From the NCBI GenBank assembly GCA_016783985.1, contig JADHVM010000017.1, forward strand, positions 1 through 16,498: a stretch of DNA of 16,498 bases, in the 5' to 3' direction. The notes below the pieces were generated by a model. It did not search any database, was not told where the DNA came from, and saw only the letters and a program-made list of their open reading frames with translations. How positions within the stretch are numbered: position 1 is the first letter of the stretch; each line of letters starts with the position of its first letter. This document shows positions 2,414-16,148 of the stretch, in pieces. The position numbers and the translations under genes were made by a program. The stretch comes from Actinomycetota bacterium (GTDB lineage Bacteria; Actinomycetota; Humimicrobiia; Humimicrobiales; Humimicrobiaceae).

Positions 2414-3301
2414 TTAAGGCTTATGTTCCATTTCCATAAGACAATTAACTTTTTCTTTGTATAGATTCATAATTTTTTTTGTAATATTGCCAGGAACTTT
2501 ATCTATAACTCTATATTTATCAATTTGGCAAACTGGTATAATCTCCATTATGGAATTAGTTAAAAAAATTTCATCAGACTCTTTAATATCAAAATAATGA
2601 ATTCTTCTCTGTCTCAGTTTTATTTTATTTTCCTTACATAATTCTATTACTTGTGCCCGTGTTATTCCAGGTAAAATATTTTGAGTAAGTGGTGTTGTGT
2701 AAACAGTACTATCTTTTACAAAAAAGATATTAGATGTTGCTCCCTCCAGAATAATATGATCTTTTGTTAAAAAAATTGCTTCTTTTGCACTGTTTCGTAA
2801 AGCCTCGTTTTTTGCAAAAATATTTTCAAAATAATTTATGAGTTTATACATATAAAGGTTATTTCCCAAAGCATCTCTTTTTAAAGATGAAGTTATAATC
2901 TTTATACCATTCCTATAATCTTTCTCAGGGTAACTAATAAGCTTGTGTGCAATTATTATTAAATTAGGCTTAAATGAGCTGTCAATATTAAATCTTTCCC
3001 TGTAAGGACCCCTGGTTACTATTATTTTAATATAAGCTTCCCTACTTTTTAAATTATTGCCACTTATTACTTTATCTATGGAATATTTGACATAGGATTT
3101 GTCAAAGTCAAACTTATATCTTAAAATTTTTAGTGTATGGAACATTCGCTGCAGGTGAGCTTCCAGCATAAAAACATAACCATTATAACTCCTCAAAGTC
3201 TCAAATATTCCATCACCATACAGGAACCCAGCATCATTTATGGATACAGCTGCACTCTTTTCTCGGACTAATTTATTATTTATAAAAATATAACTATCCA
3301 T
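2414..3301 (-). CDS. pabC: Fold-type IV PLP enzyme, probable 4-amino-4-deoxychorismate lyase
   Basis: The 295-residue protein has the BCAT/D-amino-acid transaminase/ADC lyase fold: INDAGFLYGDGIFETLR (21-37), the probable PLP Schiff-base lysine K153 in YKLINYFEN, the LEGATSNIFF segment (185-194) and ILPGITRAQVIEL (209-221). The family holds branched-chain aminotransferase (IlvE), D-alanine aminotransferase and aminodeoxychorismate lyase (PabC), which share these motifs. I choose PabC because the gene follows pabA and pabB on the same strand. That would complete p-aminobenzoate synthesis by releasing pyruvate from aminodeoxychorismate. An IlvE-type activity is the main alternative. A 143-bp gap separates it from pabB and contains a plausible promoter of its own. 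The start is the ATG at 3301; only a distant, weak GG-containing ribosome-binding site is visible. Confidence 0.8.
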   Translation of the reverse strand: MDSYIFINNKLVREKSAAVSINDAGFLYGDGIFETLRSYNGYVFMLEAHLQRMFHTLKILRYKFDFDKSYVKYSIDKVISGNNLKSREAYIKIIVTRGPYRERFNIDSSFKPNLIIIAHKLISYPEKDYRNGIKIITSSLKRDALGNNLYMYKLINYFENIFAKNEALRNSAKEAIFLTKDHIILEGATSNIFFVKDSTVYTTPLTQNILPGITRAQVIELCKENKIKLRQRRIHYFDIKESDEIFLTNSIMEIIPVCQIDKYRVIDKVPGNITKKIMNLYKEKVNCLMEMEHKP

Positions 3302-3373
3302 AAATTTTTACTTAAAACCTACAATTTCTCATTTATATATTAATACTAATTTCTAATATAAATTTTTATATAT

Positions 3374-3403
3374 ATTATTACCACTTACTATTATACTAGT
3401 CAA
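3374..3403 (-). promoter_or_regulatory. Candidate sigma-70 type promoter for pabC
   Basis: On the minus strand TTGACT (3403-3398) is followed after 18 bp by AATAAT (3379-3374). Transcription would start near 3367, giving a leader of about 65 bases before the pabC ATG. The -35 box is close to consensus and the -10 box is acceptable. In such AT-rich DNA chance matches are common, so this is moderate evidence only. Confidence 0.4.
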
Positions 3404-3444
3404 GAAATTCATTCAAGCTAATCTTAAGATTTCTAGCATACCCC

Positions 3445-5151
3445 TTACAGAAGCTTCTTTAAATTCCTACTTTCAAAAAATCTTAAAGTCTCCTGCAGGG
3501 CAAGACCCTTATCCAATGTTTCCTGGAATTCTTCTTCAGGAACAGAGTCCTCAACTATCCCACCGCCAACATTATAATAAAAATTATCCTCTTTTATGAT
3601 AAAAGTTCTTATAACAATATTTATATCCATTGTATTATCAATTCCAATATAACCTATAGAACCTGTGTAGACAGTTCTTGCAGTTGACTCAAGCTCATCA
3701 ATTATCTGCATTGCTCTTATCTTTGGAGCACCAGTTATAGAGCCTCCAGGGAAAGTTGCCTTTAATATATCTGCAATATCAAACTTTTTCCTAACCTTAC
3801 CAACTACTGTAGATACTGAATGAAAAACTTTAGCATACTTTTCTATTACTGCATGCTCACTAACTTCAACACTCCCATAATTACAAAATTTTCCTAAATC
3901 ATTTCTTTCTAGATCAACAATCATATTTAGTTCTGCCCTATCTTTAATACTATTTTTTAACTCAACTATATATTTTTCATCCTCAAGTTCATTTTTCCCC
4001 CTGGGTCTTGTTCCCTTTATAGGTCTTGTTTCAATAATATCTCCTTTTAGAAATAGAAACCTTTCAGGTGAAGAACTGCCAATCTTCACCTCTGGAAAAT
4101 TTAAGAAAGCTGAAAATGGAGCAGCATTCTTCTCCCTTAAAATATAATATAAATCAATAGGTTCAACAGGCAGCTTGCAATGAAATCTTTGAGTCATACT
4201 CATCTGATAAATATCACCATTATGAATATATTCCTTTGCCTTACTAACAGCCTTTAGGTAATTCTTTTTTGTAAAATTTGAACGAAGCCTGATAGAAGCC
4301 ACTTCTTTTTTACTATATTTTTTTATTATATGCTGCTTTACTTTATCCCCATTTTTTTTAGAAGATAATTTATTTTTAAATTTAAAAAATCTCCTATTAT
4401 ATTTCTCCAGTAACATTTTATTTATTTTTTCCCATTCAAGATTAACTCTTTCTAAAAGATTTTCTTCGCTTACATTGTTATCCACATAATCATCTTCTGA
4501 AAAATTAATATCATAACCTTCAGCCTCAAAATAATCACTATCAGCATTTATAGAATTGTAATTTTTATAAAAACTTCTATCAGATCTCCCCTTTGTTTTA
4601 ATCAAATAATTCCTGATAAAATACCATTTACTTTTATTATGGTCATAAGAAAACAACCTGTCATAAAAAGCCAGGTAAAATAATGGGATATTAATATCAT
4701 CAAAAACTGTCTGGGGAAGAATCTCGATAAAATTTTTTAAATCATAAGAAAAATATCCAACAAATCCGCCTTTAAAATCCGGTAATTTATCTTTAGATTT
4801 TTTAGAAATAATTCTTAACTTATCTCTGTTAATGTAAATAACCTTTAAATCTTCACTTCGCCTGTTACCGATTTTACCTGTATAATTTCCTACATGCTGC
4901 TTTAAAAATGATAAAGGATGCTGATAAGAAAAATATTTTATATTTCTGGATATATTAATAAACTCATTTTCATACCCAAAGCTCTTTAATACGAACTTCG
5001 GATTCCAACTTATATATGAAAATTGAGAATACTTATTAGGACAAAGACTACTGTCTAAGTAACAAAGATAATCACAATCCCCCTGAATATAAGCAACTTC
5101 CTGAGGAGACAAATCTAAATTTATAGTTGTAACTGTAGAAATTACTTTCAT
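3445..5151 (-). CDS. pabB: Aminodeoxychorismate synthase component I (chorismate-binding enzyme)
   Basis: The protein makes 4-amino-4-deoxychorismate from chorismate using ammonia from the PabA glutaminase. The N-terminal domain has the DSSLCPNKYSQFSYISW and FKGGFVGYFSYDL patterns. The catalytic half (about 290-560) contains NGDIYQMSMTQRF, GSSSPERFL, TRPIKGTRPRG, DLERNDLGK and FPGGSITGAPKIRAM. PIKGT at 377-381 carries the lysine (K379) used by aminodeoxychorismate synthases; anthranilate synthases normally have PIAGT, so PabB is favoured over TrpE. At 568 residues it is about 100 longer than typical PabB. The excess is a charged, Asn/Lys/Asp-rich stretch at about 185-290 between the two halves. 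Its ATG overlaps the pabA stop as ATGA, implying translational coupling. Confidence 0.93.
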   Translation of the reverse strand: MKVISTVTTINLDLSPQEVAYIQGDCDYLCYLDSSLCPNKYSQFSYISWNPKFVLKSFGYENEFINISRNIKYFSYQHPLSFLKQHVGNYTGKIGNRRSEDLKVIYINRDKLRIISKKSKDKLPDFKGGFVGYFSYDLKNFIEILPQTVFDDINIPLFYLAFYDRLFSYDHNKSKWYFIRNYLIKTKGRSDRSFYKNYNSINADSDYFEAEGYDINFSEDDYVDNNVSEENLLERVNLEWEKINKMLLEKYNRRFFKFKNKLSSKKNGDKVKQHIIKKYSKKEVASIRLRSNFTKKNYLKAVSKAKEYIHNGDIYQMSMTQRFHCKLPVEPIDLYYILREKNAAPFSAFLNFPEVKIGSSSPERFLFLKGDIIETRPIKGTRPRGKNELEDEKYIVELKNSIKDRAELNMIVDLERNDLGKFCNYGSVEVSEHAVIEKYAKVFHSVSTVVGKVRKKFDIADILKATFPGGSITGAPKIRAMQIIDELESTARTVYTGSIGYIGIDNTMDINIVIRTFIIKEDNFYYNVGGGIVEDSVPEEEFQETLDKGLALQETLRFFESRNLKKLL

Positions 5152-5702
5152 AATTCAATAAAATTTTTAAGTATTTCCTTCCCATACGAAGTAAGAAAAG
5201 ACTCAGGGTGAAATTGTATCCCTTCCAGTTTATATCTTTTATGTCTTATTCCCATTACAATTTTATCTTTAGTATAAGCAGAAATTTCAAACTCCTGCGG
5301 AATAGTATCTTTTTTTAATATTAGGGAATGATACCGGGCAGCTTCAAATGGACTTTCGATACCAGAGAATATTGTATGCTTGTCATGATAAATTAGAGAG
5401 GTCTTGCCATGAAATACAATCCCAGAGTTTATAACTTCTGCACCAAAAACTTCTCCTATGCACTGGTGTCCCAAACAGACACCCAGTATAGGAATTAACC
5501 TGTAAAAATGCTTGATTAAATCTTTTGATATTCCTGCATCTTTGGGTCTTCCTGGTCCAGGAGATATAACAATTTTTAAAGGAGCCATTTTCTCTATTTC
5601 ACGTATACTTATTTTATCATTTCTTCTGACTTTTATGTTCTCTCCCAATACCCCTAAATACTGTACTAAATTAAAAGTAAATGAGTCATAATTATCTATC
5701 AT
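5148..5702 (-). CDS. pabA: Aminodeoxychorismate/anthranilate synthase glutaminase component (class I GATase), start uncertain
   Basis: Class I glutamine amidotransferase that supplies ammonia to PabB. IDNYDSFTFNLVQYLG opens the protein, SPGPGRPKDAG forms the oxyanion-side loop, GVCLGHQ holds the nucleophile C76, and FHPES holds H165 and E167; the triad is complete. Only gene position separates PabA from TrpG; pabB overlap makes PabA the better call. The first ATG (5702) gives 184 residues, but this cuts into the first beta strand: family members usually begin with two or three hydrophobic residues before IDNYDSF, and the codons just upstream (KKIDIL) supply them in frame. There is no ribosome-binding site near 5702. 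A strong one sits 8 bases before an in-frame ATT at 5741, which would give 197 residues. I list the ATG form but consider the ATT start more likely. Confidence 0.9.
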   Translation of the reverse strand: MIDNYDSFTFNLVQYLGVLGENIKVRRNDKISIREIEKMAPLKIVISPGPGRPKDAGISKDLIKHFYRLIPILGVCLGHQCIGEVFGAEVINSGIVFHGKTSLIYHDKHTIFSGIESPFEAARYHSLILKKDTIPQEFEISAYTKDKIVMGIRHKRYKLEGIQFHPESFLTSYGKEILKNFIEL

Positions 5703-7768: not shown

Positions 7769-10700
7769 ATGGAAGACAAGAATAAAAATATCGATTACAG
7801 TGAGAAAAGATATAGCAGTCTTATAAAAGCAGCTCCTGATGGCATAATTACAGTAAACACAAAAGGAATAATAACCACAATAAATCCAGCTTTTATAAGA
7901 TTAACGGGATCCACTAAAAAAGAAATTATTGGAAAACACTTATCAATGCTTCCTGCAATACAGAAAACTGATGCTTTAAAATATGTAAAAATATTCCAAT
8001 CTATTTTAAGAGATAAACAACCTCTAAAAACTGAGTTTTATTTTAAAAAAACAGATGGTGATACCAGTCTAGTCGAGGTTAGGGCTGGATTAATTAAAAA
8101 AAATGGTAAGGTTTTAGAAATACAGGGAATATTCCGAGATATTACAGAGCAAAGGAATACTGAAAATTTTATTAAACTACAATGTGATCTCGCTAATAAA
8201 CTAAGCAGCATTTCTAATTTGAGTAAAGCACTTAAAGTATGTGTCGATACAGCTATTGAAACTACAGGAATGGATTGCGGTGGAGTCTATCTTGTTGATA
8301 GTAAAACACAAGAAATAAATCTTTCCTATTCAAAAGGACTGCCTAATAGTTTTATAAAGAGTGCATCAAAATACAGTAAAGATTCGCCAAGTGCCAAACT
8401 AGTTATGGCTGGAAAACCCATATATTCACAACACCATAAACTCGGTATTCCACTGGATAAAATTAGCTACAAAGAAATGCTTCTTGCTATTGCTGTTATT
8501 CCCATAAAGCATGAAGGCAGTGTAATTGCCTGCCTTAATATTGCATCACATACATTAAGTGAAATACCAGTTAATACTCGCAATATACTTGAGAGTACAG
8601 CAAACCTAGTGGGTGGTACTATTGCAAGATTAATTGCTAAAGAAACCCTGGAAAAAAGTGAAGAAAAATACAGGTCAATATTTGAAAATCCTATTGTTGG
8701 TACTTATAAAAGTACTTTAGATGGAAAATATATAGATGCAAATTCAGCACTTGTAAAAATGCTTGGATATTCCAGTAAAAAAGAACTTCTTTCAGTAGAT
8801 ATAAAAAAAGATCTATACTGCTCTGAAAAAGATAGACCATCCCATAATAATAGAAAAAAACCATTCAAAGTTTGCTTAAAGAAAAAAGATGATTCTAAAA
8901 TATGGGTAGAAGTAAGTTCAAAGGTTATATATGACAATGGGAAACCTACTAGTTATGAAGGAATAGTTAGGGATATAACAGAACAAAAGGAAGCAGAGGA
9001 AGCTTTAAAAGCAAGTGAAGAAAAATATAGAATATTGGTTCAGACATTGCCTACAAGAATATGGCTAAAAGATTTAGATTCAATTTTTCTATCCTGTAAT
9101 AGAGCCCTTGCTAAAGATTTAGGAATAAGACCTTCTGATATTGTTGGTAAAACTGATTATGATTTCTTTCCAAAAAAAATGGCTTCCAAATACATAAAGG
9201 ATGATAAAAAAGTTTTAAAATCTGGAAAAACTGCTGATATAGAAGAAACACAGATCCAAAACGGAAAGGAAATATATATACATACAATAAAAACCCCTGT
9301 TAGAGACAAAGATGGTAATATTTATGGAATAATGGGTGCTTTTTGGGATATAACAGAAAGAAAAAAAGCCGAAAAAGCTCTTAAGGAAAGTGAGAAAAAG
9401 TTTCGTTCATTATATATGACAATGAGAGAAGGTGCTTGCCTCCATGAAATTATTTATATCAATTCAGGCAAAGCTACGGATTACAGAATTATAGATGCTA
9501 ATAAATCCTATGAATCAATTTTCGGATTAAAAAGAAGAAGCGTTATCGGTAAAAAAGCTTCAAAAGTTTATAAAACAGGGAATCCTCCATATCTTGACAT
9601 CTATACGAAAGTTGCTGAATCAGGGAAACCTACCTACTTTGAAACCTACTTTGCACCTATGGAGAAGCACTTAAGTATTTCTGTATCTTCTCCTGAAAAA
9701 GGAAAGTTTGCAACAGTATTTTCAGATATTACAGACCGTATAAAGGCAGAAAACCAACTAAAATATCAATCTTTCCACGACGGCCTAACAGGCTTATACA
9801 ATAGAACCTATTTTGAAGAAGAGCTTACCAGACTTGATACAGCCAGGCAGCTTCCCTTGAGTATAATTATCGGTGATGTTAATGGATTAAAACTTATAAA
9901 TGATGCATTTGGCCACGCACAAGGCGACAAGCTCCTCTGCAAATGTGCAGAAGTACTTGAAAAATGCTTAAGAAAAGAAGACATTATCGCCAGATGGGGA
10001 GGCGATGAATTCTCAATCCTTCTTCCCAAAACTAAAAATGATACAGCACTTAAACTAATAAATAGGATAAGATTAAGGTGTGCAGAGGAAAGTAGTAAAA
10101 GAATGCCGCTAAGTATTTCTCTGGGCCTGTCAACTAAAGAAAAATCTTCACAAAATATAGAAGAGATTGCAAGAGAAGCAGAAGGTAATATGTATAAGGA
10201 CAAATTACTTGATAGAAAAAGTATTACTGGATCAATTATATCATCACTTGAATTAGCTTTATTTGAAAAAGAATATGAAACAAGAGAGCATATAGAAAGA
10301 ATTAAAAAATTATCTATAAAATTAGGCAAAGCAGTTAATTTATCAATAAGTGAACTTAACAAACTCACATTAATTTCTACGCTTCATGATATTGGCAAGA
10401 TAGCAATACCATATGAAATCCTTTTTAAAAAAGATAAACTCCTAAAAAAAGAATGGGATATCATAAAAAAACATTCTGAGATAGGAAATAATATTTGTAA
10501 ATCTTCTCCTATGCTTTCTCATATAGCTGAAGACATACTCTACCACCATGAATGGTGGGATGGCTCAGGTTATCCTAAAAGACTTAAAGGCAAGGATATC
10601 CCAATTACTACTCGTATCATATCAATAGTTGATGCTTACGATGTTATGAGGTATGGAAGACCATACAGGAAAGCAATAAATAAAAAAGAGGCTATAAAAG

Positions 10701-10774
10701 AACTAAAGAGATGTGCTGGTACTCAGTTCAGCCCATCTTTAGTTAAAAAATTCATTAAGACTATAAAAAAATAA
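7769..10774 (+). CDS. PAS-GAF-PAS-PAS-PAS-GGDEF-HD-GYP cyclic-di-GMP signalling protein
   Basis: A 1001-residue sensor with both synthesis and hydrolysis modules. Order: PAS (about 12-127, ending in FRDITEQR), GAF (about 135-290), PAS (298-408), PAS (418-532), a more diverged PAS (543-658), GGDEF (about 665-820) and HD-GYP (about 828-1000). The cyclase domain has DGLTGLYNR (671-679), DVNGLKLINDAFGHAQGD and an intact GGDEF (744-748). RKED at 735-738 matches the RxxD inhibitory site for product feedback, five residues before GGDEF. The phosphodiesterase domain has HDIGK (873-877), HSEIG, HHEWWDGSGYP (926-936) and DAYDVMRYGRPYRK. No signal peptide or membrane segment is visible, so it should be cytosolic and sense small ligands, redox state or gases through PAS/GAF; no cofactor residue is assignable. 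It stands alone on the plus strand between the exporter and the convergent synthase operon. Confidence 0.93.
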   Translation: MEDKNKNIDYSEKRYSSLIKAAPDGIITVNTKGIITTINPAFIRLTGSTKKEIIGKHLSMLPAIQKTDALKYVKIFQSILRDKQPLKTEFYFKKTDGDTSLVEVRAGLIKKNGKVLEIQGIFRDITEQRNTENFIKLQCDLANKLSSISNLSKALKVCVDTAIETTGMDCGGVYLVDSKTQEINLSYSKGLPNSFIKSASKYSKDSPSAKLVMAGKPIYSQHHKLGIPLDKISYKEMLLAIAVIPIKHEGSVIACLNIASHTLSEIPVNTRNILESTANLVGGTIARLIAKETLEKSEEKYRSIFENPIVGTYKSTLDGKYIDANSALVKMLGYSSKKELLSVDIKKDLYCSEKDRPSHNNRKKPFKVCLKKKDDSKIWVEVSSKVIYDNGKPTSYEGIVRDITEQKEAEEALKASEEKYRILVQTLPTRIWLKDLDSIFLSCNRALAKDLGIRPSDIVGKTDYDFFPKKMASKYIKDDKKVLKSGKTADIEETQIQNGKEIYIHTIKTPVRDKDGNIYGIMGAFWDITERKKAEKALKESEKKFRSLYMTMREGACLHEIIYINSGKATDYRIIDANKSYESIFGLKRRSVIGKKASKVYKTGNPPYLDIYTKVAESGKPTYFETYFAPMEKHLSISVSSPEKGKFATVFSDITDRIKAENQLKYQSFHDGLTGLYNRTYFEEELTRLDTARQLPLSIIIGDVNGLKLINDAFGHAQGDKLLCKCAEVLEKCLRKEDIIARWGGDEFSILLPKTKNDTALKLINRIRLRCAEESSKRMPLSISLGLSTKEKSSQNIEEIAREAEGNMYKDKLLDRKSITGSIISSLELALFEKEYETREHIERIKKLSIKLGKAVNLSISELNKLTLISTLHDIGKIAIPYEILFKKDKLLKKEWDIIKKHSEIGNNICKSSPMLSHIAEDILYHHEWWDGSGYPKRLKGKDIPITTRIISIVDAYDVMRYGRPYRKAINKKEAIKELKRCAGTQFSPSLVKKFIKTIKK

Positions 10775-10862: not shown

Positions 10863-11951
10863 TTATTTAAGACGATTAATTTTTTTAACTATTGCATCTG
10901 CTACTTCTTTTGTGCCTACAGCAGTAGGGTCATCTCTTGTAGGTTTCATATCATAAGTTACATATTTTCCTTCGCTAATATTTTGAGCAATTGCAGTTTC
11001 CAGGTAATCTGCACAACTACTCTCACCAATATAATTTAACATTAGTACAGCAGAAAACATCATCGCAGTAGGATTTACTTTATTTAAACCTTTGTATTTA
11101 GGTGCACTTCCATGCGTGGGTTCAAATAATGCTATATCATTTCCAATATTTCCTCCTGGAGCAACTCCCAATCCTCCAACAAGTCCTGCAGCAAGATCAG
11201 ATATTATATCACCATATAAATTAGGAAGCACAAGAACATCATACAGCTCGGGCTTTTGAATAAGTTGCATACACATATTATCGACTATTCTATCTTCAGA
11301 CTCAATATCATTATATTCAGAAGCAATCTTTTTAAATACATTCAAAAATATCCCATCAGAATATTTCATTATATTTGCCTTATGTATCCCTGTTACTTTT
11401 TTTCTATTATTCTTTCGGGCATACTCAAAAGCAAACCTTATTATATTCTCAGAACCAGTTACAGATATAGGCTTTAAACTTATACCACTATCTTTCCTTA
11501 TGAGAAAATCTTTTTTTTCTTTAACAAAATTAATAAGATCTTTAGTTTCATCTTTATTAAGCTCAAATTCTATTCCAGCATATAAGTCTTCTGTATTTTC
11601 TCTTATAACAACCAAATCTATGTCACTGTATTTACTTTTTACCCCTTTATAACTTTTACAAGGCCTAACACATGCATATAAGTTAAATAATTTCCTCATA
11701 GCTACATTTACACTTCTAAAACCAATCCCAACAGGAGTAGTTATAGGACCTTTTATACCAACCTTATTTGCTTTTAAAGAGTCTATCACTTTTTGGGGAA
11801 GGACATTCCCTTCTTTTTCATAAACTTCTGCTCCAGCCTGAACTATATCCCATTCTATATCTACACCCGTTGCTTCAATTACCTTTACTGTAGCATCAGT
11901 TATTTCCGGTCCTATACCATCTCCAGGAATTAATGTTATAGTATGCTTCAT
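10863..11951 (-). CDS. icd: Isocitrate/isopropylmalate dehydrogenase family, isocitrate dehydrogenase-like
   Basis: The 362-residue beta-decarboxylating dehydrogenase has GDGIGPEI (10-17), RENTEDLYAGIE (117-128), HKANIM (190-195), GDIISDLAAGLVGGLG (247-262) and HGSAPKYKG (280-288). Catalytic Y124 and K191 and metal-binding Asp residues (D224, D248, D252) are present. The substrate helix reads S80-V-N82-V-A-M-R86, the SxNxxxR arrangement used by isocitrate dehydrogenases. Isopropylmalate dehydrogenases and Thermus-type homoisocitrate dehydrogenase do not carry it. The KY pair (285-286) after HGSAP aligns with the K344-Y345 NADP pair of E. coli Icd, while the downstream TYDMKPTRDDPTAVGT loop differs from Icd, so cofactor choice is open. 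Expected reaction: isocitrate to 2-oxoglutarate and CO2. The ATG overlaps the leuD stop (ATGA), with AAGGGG 8 bases upstream. Confidence 0.85.
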   Translation of the reverse strand: MKHTITLIPGDGIGPEITDATVKVIEATGVDIEWDIVQAGAEVYEKEGNVLPQKVIDSLKANKVGIKGPITTPVGIGFRSVNVAMRKLFNLYACVRPCKSYKGVKSKYSDIDLVVIRENTEDLYAGIEFELNKDETKDLINFVKEKKDFLIRKDSGISLKPISVTGSENIIRFAFEYARKNNRKKVTGIHKANIMKYSDGIFLNVFKKIASEYNDIESEDRIVDNMCMQLIQKPELYDVLVLPNLYGDIISDLAAGLVGGLGVAPGGNIGNDIALFEPTHGSAPKYKGLNKVNPTAMMFSAVLMLNYIGESSCADYLETAIAQNISEGKYVTYDMKPTRDDPTAVGTKEVADAIVKKINRLK

Positions 11952-12466
11952 AAATTAAACCCCTTGTTCTTTTTTATATGTTCAGTAAGACCACCATCGT
12001 ATAAAATTTTTATCATAACTTCAGGTAATGGATTAAAATTAATATTTAAAGATTTTGATATATTTCTTACAAGTCCATTTCTTAAATCTATTTCGAGCAA
12101 ATCTCTATCACCAATTTTATCTGTATCACAAATAATAACTGGAAGGCCAATATTTATACAGTTTCTAAAAAAAATACGGGCAAATGATTTTGCTAAAACT
12201 GCTCCAACACCAGCAATCTTAATTATAGCTGGAGCATGCTCCCTGCTGGAACCAAGCCCAAAGTTCCTGCCTCCAACTATAAAATCACCCTTACTTACCT
12301 TTCCTGCAAAATCAGGGTCAGCATCTTCCAAAACATGTTTTGCCAGTTCAGGCATATTTGACCTTAAGTGAAAATATCTTCCAGGAGCAATCAAATCAGT
12401 TGAAATATCATCCCCGAATTTATGACTTTTACCTTTTAAAATTTTCTCATCCTTTCCTAAAACCAT
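11948..12466 (-). CDS. leuD: LeuD-type hydro-lyase small subunit (aconitase/homoaconitase/isopropylmalate isomerase swivel domain)
   Basis: The 172-residue protein is the separate swivel subunit of a two-part aconitase-family isomerase. FGDDISTDLIAPGRYF (17-32), GGRNFGLGSSREHAP (65-79, with the catalytic-side GSSREH) and LAKSFARIFFRNCINIGLP are diagnostic. The specificity loop after GRY reads FHLRS (32-36). Archaeal homoaconitase subunits have YLRT and isopropylmalate isomerases a YLVx-type sequence at this place, as I recall, so the arginine (R35) suits a substrate with an extra carboxylate such as citrate or homocitrate better than isopropylmalate. The subunit pairs with the product of the gene 6 bp upstream. 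GGGAGGTG lies 12 bases before the ATG, a rather long spacing. Confidence 0.88.
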   Translation of the reverse strand: MVLGKDEKILKGKSHKFGDDISTDLIAPGRYFHLRSNMPELAKHVLEDADPDFAGKVSKGDFIVGGRNFGLGSSREHAPAIIKIAGVGAVLAKSFARIFFRNCINIGLPVIICDTDKIGDRDLLEIDLRNGLVRNISKSLNINFNPLPEVMIKILYDGGLTEHIKKNKGFNL

Positions 12467-12472
12467 TTTACT

Positions 12473-13726
12473 CTAGAGCACCTCCCTTGGATCTGATATG
12501 TATCCTCTAACAGCACTCCATGCAGCTGTAGCTGGTGATGACAGGTATATAAATGAATCTGGATTGCCCATTCTACCTTTAAAATTCCTATTCTGAGTTG
12601 AAAGACAAACCTCACCACTACCCAGTATTCCCTGGTGCACACCAACACATGGCCCACACCCAGGAGATATAACTACAGCTCCACTCTTAATTAAAGTTTT
12701 AATAATCCCACATTCCAGAGCATCCAGATATATTCTTCTTGATGCAGGTGCCACTATTAATCTTACATTTTTAGCAATTTTTTTATCCTTTAATATTTCT
12801 TCAGCTACCTTTAAATCAGCTAACCTTCCATTCGTACATGTTCCAATATACACCTGGTCTATTTTTATATTATCTAATTTACTAACAGGCTTAATATTAT
12901 CTACAGTATGCGGCATTGATACCATTGGCTCTATATCTGTGCAGTCAATATCTAAAACCACCTCATATTCTGCTCCAGCATCTGCTTTTACTTCCATGTA
13001 ACAATCTTCTCTGTCCTGCCCTTTTAAATACTTCAATGTAGTACTATCAGAGGAGAAAATACCTGTTTTTGCTCCTGCTTCTACTGCCATATTAGATATT
13101 GTAAATCTATCATCTATACTTAAATCTTTACTAACTTCTCCGCTAAATTCCAATGCCTTATATGTTGCCCCATCTGATGTGATTTTACCAATAAGATAAA
13201 TAATTAAATCCTTTGCATATACACCTTTTTTAACCTTGCCATTAAAATTTACCTTTATTGTTTGTGGGACCATAAGCCATGTTTTGCCAAGAGCAAAACC
13301 AACAGCAATATCAGTAGACCCCATACCTGTAGCAAATGCACCCAGTGCCCCTGAAGTGCAGGTGTGGGAATCTGCTCCAATAACTATATCACCAGGACAG
13401 ACATATGATTCCACAAGTATTTGATGACAGACACCTTCACCTATATCACTAAGCTTTGCACCTGTTTTAATAGCAAAATCTCTAAGCACCTTATGGGAAT
13501 CAGATAATTCCTTACGCGGGCTTGGCGCAGCATGGTCAATAAAAAAAATTGATTTTGATGGATTTTTCACACTGTCAAATCCCATTTTCTTTATTTGACT
13601 AACTGACAAAGGTCCGGTTCCATCCTGTGCCATTACAACATCAATGTCTACGACTACAATATCGCCAGCCTTTACATCCCTGCCAGCATGGCTGCTTATT
13701 ATTTTCTCAGCAATTGTTTTTCCCAA
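12473..13726 (-). CDS. leuC: LeuC-type hydro-lyase large subunit (4Fe-4S aconitase family)
   Basis: The 417-residue subunit carries the iron-sulfur catalytic core. ADSHTCTSGALGAFATGMGSTD (118-139 region) is the hallmark, and cluster cysteines are C297 in GTCTNGR plus C357 and C360 in PGCGPC. Together with the LeuD-type subunit it moves the hydroxyl group of a 2-hydroxy tri- or dicarboxylic acid through a dehydrated intermediate. The family includes isopropylmalate isomerase, homoaconitase, dimethylmalate hydratase and aconitase-like members, and the large subunit alone does not decide among them. The start is a TTG at 13726, with AGGAAGG 7 bases upstream and the preceding gene's stop only 14 bp away. 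The operon context suggests isomerisation of citrate or homocitrate. Confidence 0.9.
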   Translation of the reverse strand: MGKTIAEKIISSHAGRDVKAGDIVVVDIDVVMAQDGTGPLSVSQIKKMGFDSVKNPSKSIFFIDHAAPSPRKELSDSHKVLRDFAIKTGAKLSDIGEGVCHQILVESYVCPGDIVIGADSHTCTSGALGAFATGMGSTDIAVGFALGKTWLMVPQTIKVNFNGKVKKGVYAKDLIIYLIGKITSDGATYKALEFSGEVSKDLSIDDRFTISNMAVEAGAKTGIFSSDSTTLKYLKGQDREDCYMEVKADAGAEYEVVLDIDCTDIEPMVSMPHTVDNIKPVSKLDNIKIDQVYIGTCTNGRLADLKVAEEILKDKKIAKNVRLIVAPASRRIYLDALECGIIKTLIKSGAVVISPGCGPCVGVHQGILGSGEVCLSTQNRNFKGRMGNPDSFIYLSSPATAAWSAVRGYISDPREVL

Positions 13727-13740
13727 TTACAATCCTTCCT

Positions 13741-14895
13741 CTAAAGCTCTTTTTTCTTTTTACTCTTATAATCTTTATAAACATACATTAGCTCTTTATC
13801 AAAAAGAGATCTTTTTAAATCTACTGCCATGGCTCGGGCTAAAGTAAGTATTTCATTTGATTCCTTATCAGTAAGCTCTATATCAAATTCTTTAAACTTG
13901 TGAAGTATTGTATGAGAGCCTGAATGCTTGCCTACAACAAGTTGTCTTGTGAGCCCTACTTCTCCTGGCCGGAACACTTCATAATTTTTTGGATTTTTAA
14001 GTACCCCATCTGTATGGATTCCTGATTCATGAGCAAACACATTTGTTCCAACTATAGCCTTCCATACAGGAATTGCTCTTGCCGAAGCTTTAGCTACATA
14101 CTCTGATATTTCTCTAAATTTAGAAGTGGTTATTCCTAGTTCTAAATTTTCAATATATCTTAATGCCATTACAATTTCTTCAAGAGCTGCATTTCCTGTC
14201 CCTTCTCCCAGACCATTTACAGTCACTACAAGACTTGAAGCCCCTCCTCGTATTGCTGCCATACCATTGGCTGTAGCCATGCCAAAATCATTATGATTAT
14301 AGACTTCAAGCGGAAAATTAGTTGCACTGGATATTGTATTAATATAAAGAAAGGTTCTAAAAGGATCAAATTTACTAACTGTGTCACATATCCTGAACCT
14401 GAGTGCTCCTTTTTTCTTAGCAATATGTAATATTTTAAGTAAAAATTCAAGGTCTGTCCTTGTTGCATCTTCAGCACTTATAACAAAATTTAAATTTTTA
14501 CTTTTGGCAGCTCTAATTGTTGCTCTTAAAGTATTTATTACCCAGGTCCTATTCTTATTATATTTCTTCTCTATATGCAAGTCTGAAGTAGAAATATTAA
14601 TAATTACATTCTTTACCCCGCATTCAGCCACGTATTCTATATTTTCAGGTTTTGCTTCACAATAAGCAAACAATTTACAGTTAGGCTTCGTCTGCACGAT
14701 TTCTTTAACTATTTCCCTTTCCACTAACCCAAGTGAAGGTGTGCCTATTTCGACTTCAGGAATACCTATTTCATCTAATAATCCTACAATTCTAAGTTTT
14801 TCATGTTTTGAAAACACAACCCCTGCAGTTTGCTCTCCATTCCTTAAAGTTGTATCTATAATATTTATATATCTCTTATCCTTTATTATAGCCAT
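13741..14895 (-). CDS. Homocitrate synthase/NifV-family protein with degraded metal site and intact C-terminal motif (partner subunit)
   Basis: A 384-residue DRE-TIM family condensing-enzyme homologue: barrel (about 8-270), then the C-terminal lid/linker region. The usual DTTLRDGEQ is DTTLRNGEQ (N19 replacing the metal-binding Asp), HTHND is YNHND (Y199 replacing a metal His), the CDTxG loop has Ser174 for Gly, the NRA segment is CEA (78-80), and GLGERAGN is GLGEGTGN. Metal-dependent acyl transfer at this barrel is therefore doubtful. By contrast VFAHESGIHTDG (286-297) and VVGKHSG (320-326) are canonical. In this family that region covers the active site of the partner subunit. The gene starts 2 bp after the stop of its paralog, with AAGGGGGG 9 bases before the ATG. 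I infer a lid-donating subunit of a heteromeric citrate or homocitrate synthase; independent activity on another substrate is possible. Confidence 0.85.
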   Translation of the reverse strand: MAIIKDKRYINIIDTTLRNGEQTAGVVFSKHEKLRIVGLLDEIGIPEVEIGTPSLGLVEREIVKEIVQTKPNCKLFAYCEAKPENIEYVAECGVKNVIINISTSDLHIEKKYNKNRTWVINTLRATIRAAKSKNLNFVISAEDATRTDLEFLLKILHIAKKKGALRFRICDTVSKFDPFRTFLYINTISSATNFPLEVYNHNDFGMATANGMAAIRGGASSLVVTVNGLGEGTGNAALEEIVMALRYIENLELGITTSKFREISEYVAKASARAIPVWKAIVGTNVFAHESGIHTDGVLKNPKNYEVFRPGEVGLTRQLVVGKHSGSHTILHKFKEFDIELTDKESNEILTLARAMAVDLKRSLFDKELMYVYKDYKSKKKKEL

Positions 14896-14897
14896 GA

Positions 14898-16148
14898 TTA
14901 TTTTCCCCCCTTAGCCTTTGCAGCGCTTACCCTTTTACCTGATTTATTTTTATTTAATTTCTTTTTACTGGATTCACCCTTATATGATTTATAAACATCT
15001 ATGATTTCACTATCATAAAGAGACCTTTTTAGTGCTACTGATTTGTTTCTAGTTATTTCAGAAATTTCTTTTGCCTCTTCATTTTTAATTTTATAACCCA
15101 GGGAATTCAACTTTGACTTTAAAGCACTAATACCAGAATATTTTCCTATTATTATTTTTCTTTCCAATCCAACATCTTCAGGTTTAAATAATTCATATGT
15201 ACTGGGATCCACAGTAATAGCATGTGCTCTATTTTCACTCTCATAAACAAATAAATTCGCACCAACTATCGGTTTCCATGTAGGTATAAATCTTGCTGAA
15301 GCATTTGCAACATATTCTGATAACTCTCTAAATAGCTTAGTATTAAAGCCCATATCAATTTCTTCAATATATTTTAATGCCATTACTAATTCTTCAAAAG
15401 AAGCATTACCTGCTCTCTCACCTAAACCATTTACTGTAGTATTTACATAAGCAGCACCAGCTTTAATTCCAGCTATGGCGTTAGCAATTGCCATCCCAAA
15501 ATCATTATGGGTATGCATTTCAATATCAATTCTAACAATATCAATGATAGTTTTAACTCTCATAAAAGTTTCAAATGGGTCAAGAATTCCCAGCGTATCA
15601 CAATACCTGAGTCTATCCGCTCCAGCTTCTTTTGCAGTTCTTGCAAACTGCAGCAGAAACTCCATATCGGATCTTGAAGCATCTTCTGCATTTACAGATA
15701 CATATAAATTATACTTTTTAGCATAATTTACAGTAGAACTCATACTTTCAAGTACCCATTCCCTACTTTTCATTAATTTATGTTCTATGTGAATGTCTGA
15801 AGAAGATATTGATATAGCTACAGCATCCACTCCACATTCAAGCGATGCATCAACATCTGACTTAACCGCTCTGTTCCATCCTAAAATACTGCAGCTAAGA
15901 CCTAGTGATGCAATTTTTTTAATAGCTTCCTTCTCATCACCACCCATAGTTGGTATTCCAGCTTCAATTTGATGTACTCCTATTTTATCAAGCATTTTAG
16001 CTATATGAATTTTCTCATCATTAGCAAAAACTACTCCAGCAGTCTGTTCACCATCTCTCAACGTTGTATCATCAATTTTTATATTTTTAGGTTCTATTTT
16101 TGTCCCTGCTTTTCTTGTAAACTCCGTAAGTAAATTTATTTCTTGCAT
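14898..16148 (-). CDS. Homocitrate synthase/NifV-family (possible Re-citrate synthase), metal site intact, lid motif lost (catalytic barrel subunit)
   Basis: A 416-residue DRE-TIM condensing-enzyme homologue. The barrel looks active: DDTTLRDGEQTAGV (26-39, R31 and D32), IEAGIPTMGGDEKE (61-73), WNRAVKSD (91-98), NAEDASR (153-159), RYCDTLG (181-187), HTHNDFG (212-218) and NGLGERAGN (240-248). The barrel closely resembles firmicute-type homocitrate synthases; Re-citrate synthase, which condenses oxaloacetate with acetyl-CoA, belongs to the same group. The C-terminal HESGIH motif is replaced, without indel, by YESENR (302-307), and GKHSG by GKYSG. The start is taken at 16148 because AAGGTGG lies 5 bases upstream; an in-frame ATG at 16202 would add 18 residues and lacks a site. 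A Lys/Ser-rich tail of about 26 residues (391-416) follows the last conserved segment. First gene of the operon. Confidence 0.87.
   Translation of the reverse strand: MQEINLLTEFTRKAGTKIEPKNIKIDDTTLRDGEQTAGVVFANDEKIHIAKMLDKIGVHQIEAGIPTMGGDEKEAIKKIASLGLSCSILGWNRAVKSDVDASLECGVDAVAISISSSDIHIEHKLMKSREWVLESMSSTVNYAKKYNLYVSVNAEDASRSDMEFLLQFARTAKEAGADRLRYCDTLGILDPFETFMRVKTIIDIVRIDIEMHTHNDFGMAIANAIAGIKAGAAYVNTTVNGLGERAGNASFEELVMALKYIEEIDMGFNTKLFRELSEYVANASARFIPTWKPIVGANLFVYESENRAHAITVDPSTYELFKPEDVGLERKIIIGKYSGISALKSKLNSLGYKIKNEEAKEISEITRNKSVALKRSLYDSEIIDVYKSYKGESSKKKLNKNKSGKRVSAAKAKGGK

Follow-up and report, generated by a model that had tools for sequence, protein, structure and literature searches.

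Two adjacent synthase genes with complementary losses in Humimicrobiaceae: a probable obligate heteromer with one composite active site, most likely a Re-type citrate synthase

How can two full-length paralogous enzymes persist side by side when each has lost active-site residues that its neighbour retains? The question is raised by a 16,498-nucleotide stretch of contig JADHVM010000017.1 (assembly GCA_016783985.1), hereafter the window, from an actinomycetotal bacterium of the family Humimicrobiaceae (hereafter the family), in which two neighbouring genes encode relatives of homocitrate synthase that we call synthase 1 and synthase 2. Our analysis suggests that the two proteins probably act as an obligate heteromer with a single composite active site, most likely as a Re-type citrate synthase, to which synthase 1 would contribute the barrel and synthase 2 the lid.

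A preliminary description of the locus had named the residues at issue, and all of them are present where it placed them in the two minus-strand proteins. In synthase 1 the barrel motif HTHND (H212, H214) is present and the lid has GKYSG in place of GKHSG, while synthase 2 reads LRNGEQ (N19) and YNHND (Y199) in its barrel, together with YCEA for WNRA, CDTVS for CDTxG and GLGEG for GLGER, and has AHESGIH (H289, H294) and GKHSG (H324) in its lid. Where synthase 2 has H294, the proposed catalytic base, synthase 1 has R307. Only 2 bases separate the stop of synthase 1 from the start of synthase 2. The best NCBIfam model of both proteins is TIGR02660 (NifV homocitrate synthase), with 475.9 bits for synthase 1 and 445.6 bits for synthase 2 against a cut-off of 462.9, so that the former lies above it and the latter below. 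Both span model positions 2-364 of 365, which bears out the further claim that both are full length, unlike the split NifV. Their best match in the PDB is 6KTQ, a homocitrate synthase, and all the NCBIfam models of LeuA (2-isopropylmalate synthase) listed for them stay below cut-off, the proteins having 384 and 416 residues against model lengths of about 500.

Is the division of losses a peculiarity of one genome? We compared 120 synthase-1-like and 121 synthase-2-like proteins, in each case the window's own protein plus its best-ranked homologues. D32 is found in 120/120 of the former, against N19 in 118/121 of the latter; H212 in 120/120 against Y199 in 120/121; and Y302 in 120/120 against H289 in 121/121. 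The metal ligands of the DRE-TIM enzymes (Asp or Glu plus His-x-His) are complete in 120/120 synthase-1-like proteins, and all 121 synthase-2-like proteins lack at least one of them. At the lid position that aligns with His321 of the Schizosaccharomyces pombe homocitrate synthase (SpHCS), synthase 2 has His in 27/27 sequences and synthase 1 has Lys in 17/27 and Arg in 10/27. In a wider set of 364 proteins (the window pair, the listed matches of three homologue searches and the proteins of loci L075 and L082), 220 have an intact barrel and a lost lid, 121 an intact lid and a lost barrel, 23 are intact and none has lost both; each search supplied only its best 120 rows, so that these proportions differ from those in nature. 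By source, the best-ranked matches from the synthase 1 search are lid-lost in 120/120 cases and those from the synthase 2 search barrel-lost in 121/121, and the nearest homologues listed for the Chloroflexi synthase 1 (P0246-P0364), some of them named Anaerolineae or Chloroflexi, are lid-lost in 98/119 cases, most with YESEGR, and intact in the other 21. These 98 are database sequences without genomic context, as are the proteins of the homologue searches generally. Three flags raised by the motif rules are not counted as exceptions, namely L062 and L206, which are the same stretch of one genome with a broken frame, and L209, which has a Glu metal ligand and an HKSGVH lid and belongs to a different subfamily.

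A comparison with single-gene relatives, which have one synthase of this type, gives the same picture column by column. In 48 such proteins (43 from loci and 5 from databases) 135 columns are invariant, and of these the family's synthase 1 has lost 1 in the barrel and 8 in the lid, and its synthase 2 has lost 22 in the barrel and none in the lid (Fisher p = 1.1e-6); in pairs outside the family the losses are 0 and 9 for synthase 1 and 12 and 0 for synthase 2 (p = 3.4e-6). Since columns within one protein are not independent events, these p values measure the pattern and not its history; one partner row (L194) was left out of the count. Put differently, synthase 1 keeps 99/100 barrel columns and synthase 2 keeps 35/35 lid columns. 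Identity to the single-gene relatives is 0.68 in the barrel and 0.42 in the lid for synthase 1, and 0.47 and 0.64 for synthase 2, the values among the single-gene relatives themselves being 0.70 and 0.67. Within the family the median nonsynonymous divergence (dN) is 0.108 for barrel 1, 0.309 for lid 1, 0.215 for barrel 2 and 0.085 for lid 2, so the strictest conservation falls on barrel 1 and lid 2, the two halves that would meet. The median ratio of dN to synonymous divergence (dS) ranges from 0.03 to 0.20 per domain (dS being usable in 16 to 39 of 351 genome pairs), and hence neither gene looks like a pseudogene. The erosion of opposite halves that the preliminary description read from this one pair is confirmed, and it is conserved well beyond the window, across the 364 proteins and in the invariant columns.

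If each protein depends on the other, the two genes should occur together. Among 35 genomes of close relatives, probably all Humimicrobiaceae and counted here as the family, the pair is adjacent on one strand in 30 and cut by contig ends in 3 (G016, G019, G031), and neither gene is seen in 2 (G001 and G026, which are 73% and 88% complete). A synthase-1-type gene is present in 42 genomes, 31 in the family and 11 outside it, and in 40/42 a synthase-2-type gene lies directly downstream on the same strand; in the other 2 (G019, G775) the contig is cut. A barrel-lost synthase 2 without synthase 1 is found only at contig ends (G016, G031, G019). The 11 outside genomes belong to Chloroflexota and to an actinobacterial class; the partner is downstream in 10 of them, G775 being cut, and in G835 only the start of synthase 2 is present, at a contig end. 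The losses themselves are equally regular. In the family every readable synthase 1 (29/29 genomes, G018 and G019 being unreadable) has lost its lid, with Tyr or Phe in 28 and with HEIESK at 302-307 in G023, and synthase 2 has lost at least one metal ligand in 33/33 genomes. Locus counts include repeated loci, and the per-genome counts were made separately. Thus the two types do go together, a point that the preliminary description had proposed to check. Once the pair and its fragments are set aside, the top matches in family genomes have E about 1e-65, and no third close copy was found in them; a class search of 29 Chloroflexota genomes gave no further pair beyond G521.

A tree built without the motif columns recovers a lid-lost clade and a partner clade, with Shimodaira-Hasegawa-like approximate likelihood ratio (SH-aLRT) supports of 99 and 100, and their inner orders agree as far as they are resolved. 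The tree was made by a quick method from 102 of 124 aligned rows, leaving out near-duplicates, long branches, both L194 rows and others; repeated, partial and broken loci had been removed from the 124 rows beforehand, and characterised Re-citrate synthases are not among them. Pairwise distances within synthase 1 and within synthase 2 correlate with r = 0.89 over 16 pairs, one of which (L194) has a broken-frame partner, and 0 of 2000 permutations reached as high a value. In the tree synthase 1 stands beside singles from Bacillota and synthase 2 beside singles of the Chloroflexota group, both with weak support. A duplication confined to the window's family is ruled out, since the lid-lost and partner clades reach Chloroflexota and another actinobacterial class.

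Where would the conserved halves come together? We take His321 of SpHCS to be the catalytic base, and Glu44 and His224/226 to be the metal binders. In our alignment Arg43, Glu44 and His224/226 of SpHCS correspond to R31, D32 and H212/H214 of synthase 1, and His321, which lies three residues before Ala324, corresponds to H294 of synthase 2. According to a study of these enzymes, the homocitrate synthases of S. pombe and Thermus thermophilus place the C-terminal subdomain of a monomer at its partner's active centre, a model of the Saccharomyces cerevisiae enzyme has the same lid-in-trans arrangement, and Arg43 of SpHCS forms a bond to Ala324 in the partner subunit (PMC8276798). This arrangement in relatives, taken with the alignment, makes barrel 1 and lid 2 the halves that would meet. 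The pair would form an obligate heteromer, the simplest form being a 1:1 dimer or some multiple of one, in which synthase 1 would supply the working metal-binding triosephosphate isomerase (TIM) barrel and synthase 2 the working lid (HESGIH, GKHSG), reaching across to the barrel of synthase 1. Each heterodimer would then contain one complete site and one dead site, the latter made of the barrel of synthase 2 and the lid of synthase 1. The lid-over-other-barrel geometry that the preliminary description had assumed is in line with the related homocitrate synthases (PMC8276798), the agreement being with those enzymes and not with a structure of the pair itself. Two findings could have spoken against the heteromer, partnerless homologues and a lid that acts within its own chain; both were examined and both outcomes favour it, neither being direct proof.

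The single-gene relatives serve as a control for these losses. Actinobacterial genomes outside the family have one intact synthase of this type, and 25 of 33 such loci contain the synthase, LeuC, LeuD and isocitrate dehydrogenase in this order on one strand; 5 more are cut by contig ends, and 3 deviate (in L049 and L053 the dehydrogenase is missing from its place, and L054 has no LeuC/LeuD match). The motifs LRDGEQ, HTH, GLGERAGN and HESGIH are found in 33/35 aligned single-gene rows and GKH in 31/35, the other 2 of the 35 rows having gaps or pieces of broken genes at these motifs. In a wider check of single loci, some of them repeated between searches, 70/72 are intact, 1 is unreadable and 1 has a broken frame. 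An intact single-gene relative in Thermoanaerobacterium saccharolyticum adjoins an aconitase-like gene.

Could the same observations arise without a shared active site? One might suppose that synthase 1 is the sole catalyst, working without the canonical lid base, and that synthase 2 is a regulatory pseudoenzyme that modulates it. The metal ligands and the 99/100 invariant barrel columns of synthase 1 would agree with this, as would the want of an intact metal site in the family's synthase 2. However, a mere regulator would have no need of catalytic lid residues, and within synthase 2 conservation is strongest in the lid (35/35 columns, lowest dN), synthase 1 having lost exactly the residues that this lid retains; moreover, the single-gene relatives keep the lid residues in 33/35 rows and are unreadable there in the other 2. 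We therefore regard this explanation as improbable. Still less probable is that the proteins have separate functions and are neighbours merely through tandem duplication. Both are indeed full length and under purifying selection, but each is missing residues present in the single-gene relatives, the split of the losses between the domains is clean, and all the way from Chloroflexota to Actinomycetota the genes stay adjacent and matched in descent. Finally, a broken frame does occur in two assemblies (synthase 1 of G018, synthase 2 of G022), as an assembly error or decaying pseudogenes would produce; this explanation deserves practically no credence, being refuted by the recurrence of these motifs in hundreds of sequences, drawn from many assemblies, and by dN/dS well under 1. 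An obligate heteromer with one composite site thus remains the probable explanation.

What would such a heteromer make? In the window's family we consider it most likely, judging from the genes, that the pair condenses oxaloacetate and acetyl-CoA as a Re-type citrate synthase, oxaloacetate (giving citrate) being a more likely substrate than 2-oxoglutarate. Synthase 1 and synthase 2 are the first two genes of a tight minus-strand run that continues with a LeuC/HacA-type gene, a LeuD/HacB-type gene and an isocitrate-dehydrogenase-like gene (Table 1); aconitase-like and isocitrate-dehydrogenase-like neighbours are present in the window and in the family genomes. The LeuC/HacA-type protein is a probable aconitase, and these neighbours would take citrate to 2-oxoglutarate. 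Si-citrate synthase (PF00285) was detected in 0/35 family genomes and in 13/14 control genomes. Weaker and longer matches elsewhere in the family genomes resemble, by identity and length, LeuA and CimA, so that the pair need have no part in making leucine or isoleucine. A general role in nitrogen fixation as NifV is ruled out, since it would fit at most 3/35 family genomes, those with nitrogenase-type PF00148 above cut-off. The same heteromer with the same composite site might instead produce homocitrate or another 2-alkylmalate, as one would gather from the best model of the two proteins, from the homoaconitase-type families that the dehydratase subunits match and from the outside genomes with a Si-citrate synthase of their own, discussed below. 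We think this unlikely, because the structural relatives of the fifth gene that are isocitrate dehydrogenases rank above the homoisocitrate and isopropylmalate dehydrogenases, because of the PF00148 and PF00285 counts just given, and because Re-citrate synthases, which occur in several anaerobic phyla, are often misannotated as homocitrate synthase (PMC12016533). Citrate hence stays the favoured product.

Several points weigh against a citrate-forming heteromer, or at least caution against extending it too far. TIGR02660 is the best match of both proteins, and under the name homocitrate synthase citrate and homocitrate are not told apart; homoaconitase is among the members of the dehydratase subunits' families; and the dehydrogenase gene stays under the cut-off of every NCBIfam model. 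Outside the family, the pairs mostly lack LeuC/LeuD neighbours, no match to these lying in the stretches examined beside them, and 6/11 genomes have a Si-citrate synthase (PF00285, one a partial match), so that the pair there is not the sole citrate synthase and may do something else. Correlated distances are also expected from shared descent alone, and the tree, its deep branches being weak, does not separate one tandem duplication from separate sources or transfer. Moreover, the heteromer is proposed here from gene sequences: the lid in trans is taken from the paper on other members of the enzyme family, and we infer complex formation, activity and substrate.

Table 1. Positions in the window of the two synthase genes, their diagnostic residues and the genes that follow
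Feature	Position	Strand	Basis or remark
Synthase 1, 416 aa	14898..16148	minus	ATG at 16148, stop ends 14898; metal-binding barrel intact, lid lost
D32, synthase 1 LRDGEQ, metal-ligand position	16053..16055	minus	aligns with SpHCS E44; 120/120 homologues
H212-T-H214, synthase 1, metal-binding His positions	15507..15515	minus	align with SpHCS H224/H226; each 120/120
YESENR (302-307), synthase 1, replaces HESGIH (lost lid)	15228..15245	minus	motif comparison with homologues
Synthase 2, 384 aa	13741..14895	minus	ATG at 14895, stop ends 13741; lid intact, barrel metal site lost
N19, synthase 2, replaces metal-binding Asp	14839..14841	minus	118/121 homologues
Y199-N-H201, synthase 2, replaces HTH	14293..14301	minus	Y199 in 120/121 homologues
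HESGIH (289-294), synthase 2, intact lid with proposed catalytic base H294	14014..14031	minus	aligns with SpHCS H321; 27/27
H324, synthase 2 GKHSG	13924..13926	minus	27/27
LeuC/HacA-type large subunit	12473..13726	minus	TIGR01343 and NF001614 above cut-off (NCBIfam)
LeuD/HacB-type small subunit	11948..12466	minus	NCBIfam TIGR02087 above cut-off
Isocitrate-dehydrogenase-like protein, 362 aa	10863..11951	minus	isocitrate dehydrogenases are best NCBIfam and PDB matches

How could such a pair arise? Living intermediates suggest an order. Outside the family the HESGIH of synthase 1 is lost in 10/10 readable genomes, G521 still keeping GKHSG, and the barrel of synthase 2 keeps its Asp, His and His in 10/10 readable genomes, with FCRA, YCRA, FCHA or FCRP for WNRA (L075, L082, L193-L205). 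With the metal ligands of synthase 2 still in place, the need for a partner is clear only for synthase 1 in those genomes, and the losses look stepwise. Most family members read LRNGEQ/YNHND at the lost metal site of synthase 2; it is LRDGEQ/HARND in G008, and in genera g10 and g13 (L020-L026, L220, L221) it is lost as LRSGEQ/HTKN[NS]. The living intermediates fit an order in which the lid of synthase 1 was lost first and the barrel of synthase 2 afterwards. The pair probably descends from intact self-pairing ancestors like the extant single-gene relatives; loss of the lid in synthase 1 would have made it dependent on its partner, and this dependence would have freed the barrel of synthase 2, whose metal site could then be lost in the family by several different substitutions, as in a ratchet.

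The second, dead site need not be a mere relic. In the best-ranked matches, position 302 is Tyr and position 307 is Arg or Lys in all 220 lid-lost proteins, and R18 and E142 of the barrel are retained by every one of the 121 barrel-lost proteins. The conservation of these residues exceeds what simple decay would lead one to expect and leaves room for a regulatory pocket. We offer as a tentative idea, itself rather doubtful, that the dead site is a ligand pocket without metal, through which a metabolite is sensed and the working site controlled; if so, a citrate synthase would be regulated through an active site, one of two, that had become a sensor. Against this, dN is higher in lid 1 than in any of the other three domains, which favours relaxation, and the loss of the metal site of synthase 2 in several different ways looks like relaxation as well.

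Among known systems, split and unequal enzymes offer the closest comparisons. NifV-omega/NifV-alpha of Clostridium pasteurianum is likewise a NifV-type synthase encoded by two genes; there, two partial genes together give one protein length, one protein being cut into two pieces, whereas here both proteins are full length and have lost opposite halves by substitution. We found no paper on this split in the open-access literature. The NifV homocitrate synthase of TIGR02660, the best model of both our proteins, is one protein, in contrast to the two half-sites in two genes proposed here. NAD-isocitrate dehydrogenase and trypanosome deoxyhypusine synthase are heteromers of active and altered paralogues and, like the proposed pair, duplicated homomers turned into heteromers with unequal sites; however, their folds and chemistry are unrelated, and in the synthase pair the losses divide by domain of one swapped site. 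The S. pombe homocitrate synthase (PDB 3IVS) shares the TIM barrel with C-terminal subdomains that reach the other subunit's site (PMC8276798), but is a homodimer with two equal sites, the sites of the proposed pair being unequal. The Re-citrate synthases of Clostridium kluyveri, Syntrophus, Dehalococcoides and Heliomicrobium (HM1_2993) are homocitrate synthase relatives that replace Si-citrate synthase in anaerobes (PMC12016533). They are described as single genes, neither a partner paralogue nor complementary loss being mentioned in the text consulted, and by these descriptions they differ from our pair. We found no paper in the open-access literature on a Re-citrate or homocitrate synthase that is heteromeric and shows complementary losses, most subscription papers being outside the search, and searches of that literature on domain swapping, on a base supplied by the other monomer and on pseudoenzyme heteromers brought up no account of this pair.

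Should the proposal hold, an entry enzyme of central metabolism would function only when two complementary half-enzymes are paired, an arrangement conserved in a bacterial family, with an intermediate state also present in genomes of two phyla. With single genes, intermediates and end state all extant, the pair offers a testable case of a duplicated self-pairing enzyme that became locked into an obligate heteromer. There is a practical side too, for annotation tends to name both genes homocitrate synthase, which can obscure the likely role in making citrate as well as the dependence on a partner.

Some minor observations may be added. A family-type pair attributed to an Omnitrophota host (L074, JAKLQT010000170.1) was set aside as probably misbinned, its genes being 79-82% like the window's and the metagenome-assembled genome having a Si-citrate synthase. 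Elsewhere in the window, at 2414-5702 on the minus strand, aminotransferase-class-IV-like, chorismate-binding-like and glutamine-amidotransferase-like proteins stand in a row which, by eye, resembles a p-aminobenzoate (folate) gene set. At 7769-10774 on the plus strand, a protein of 1001 residues resembles, again by eye, several PAS-type sensor repeats followed by a GGDEF region and an HD-type region.

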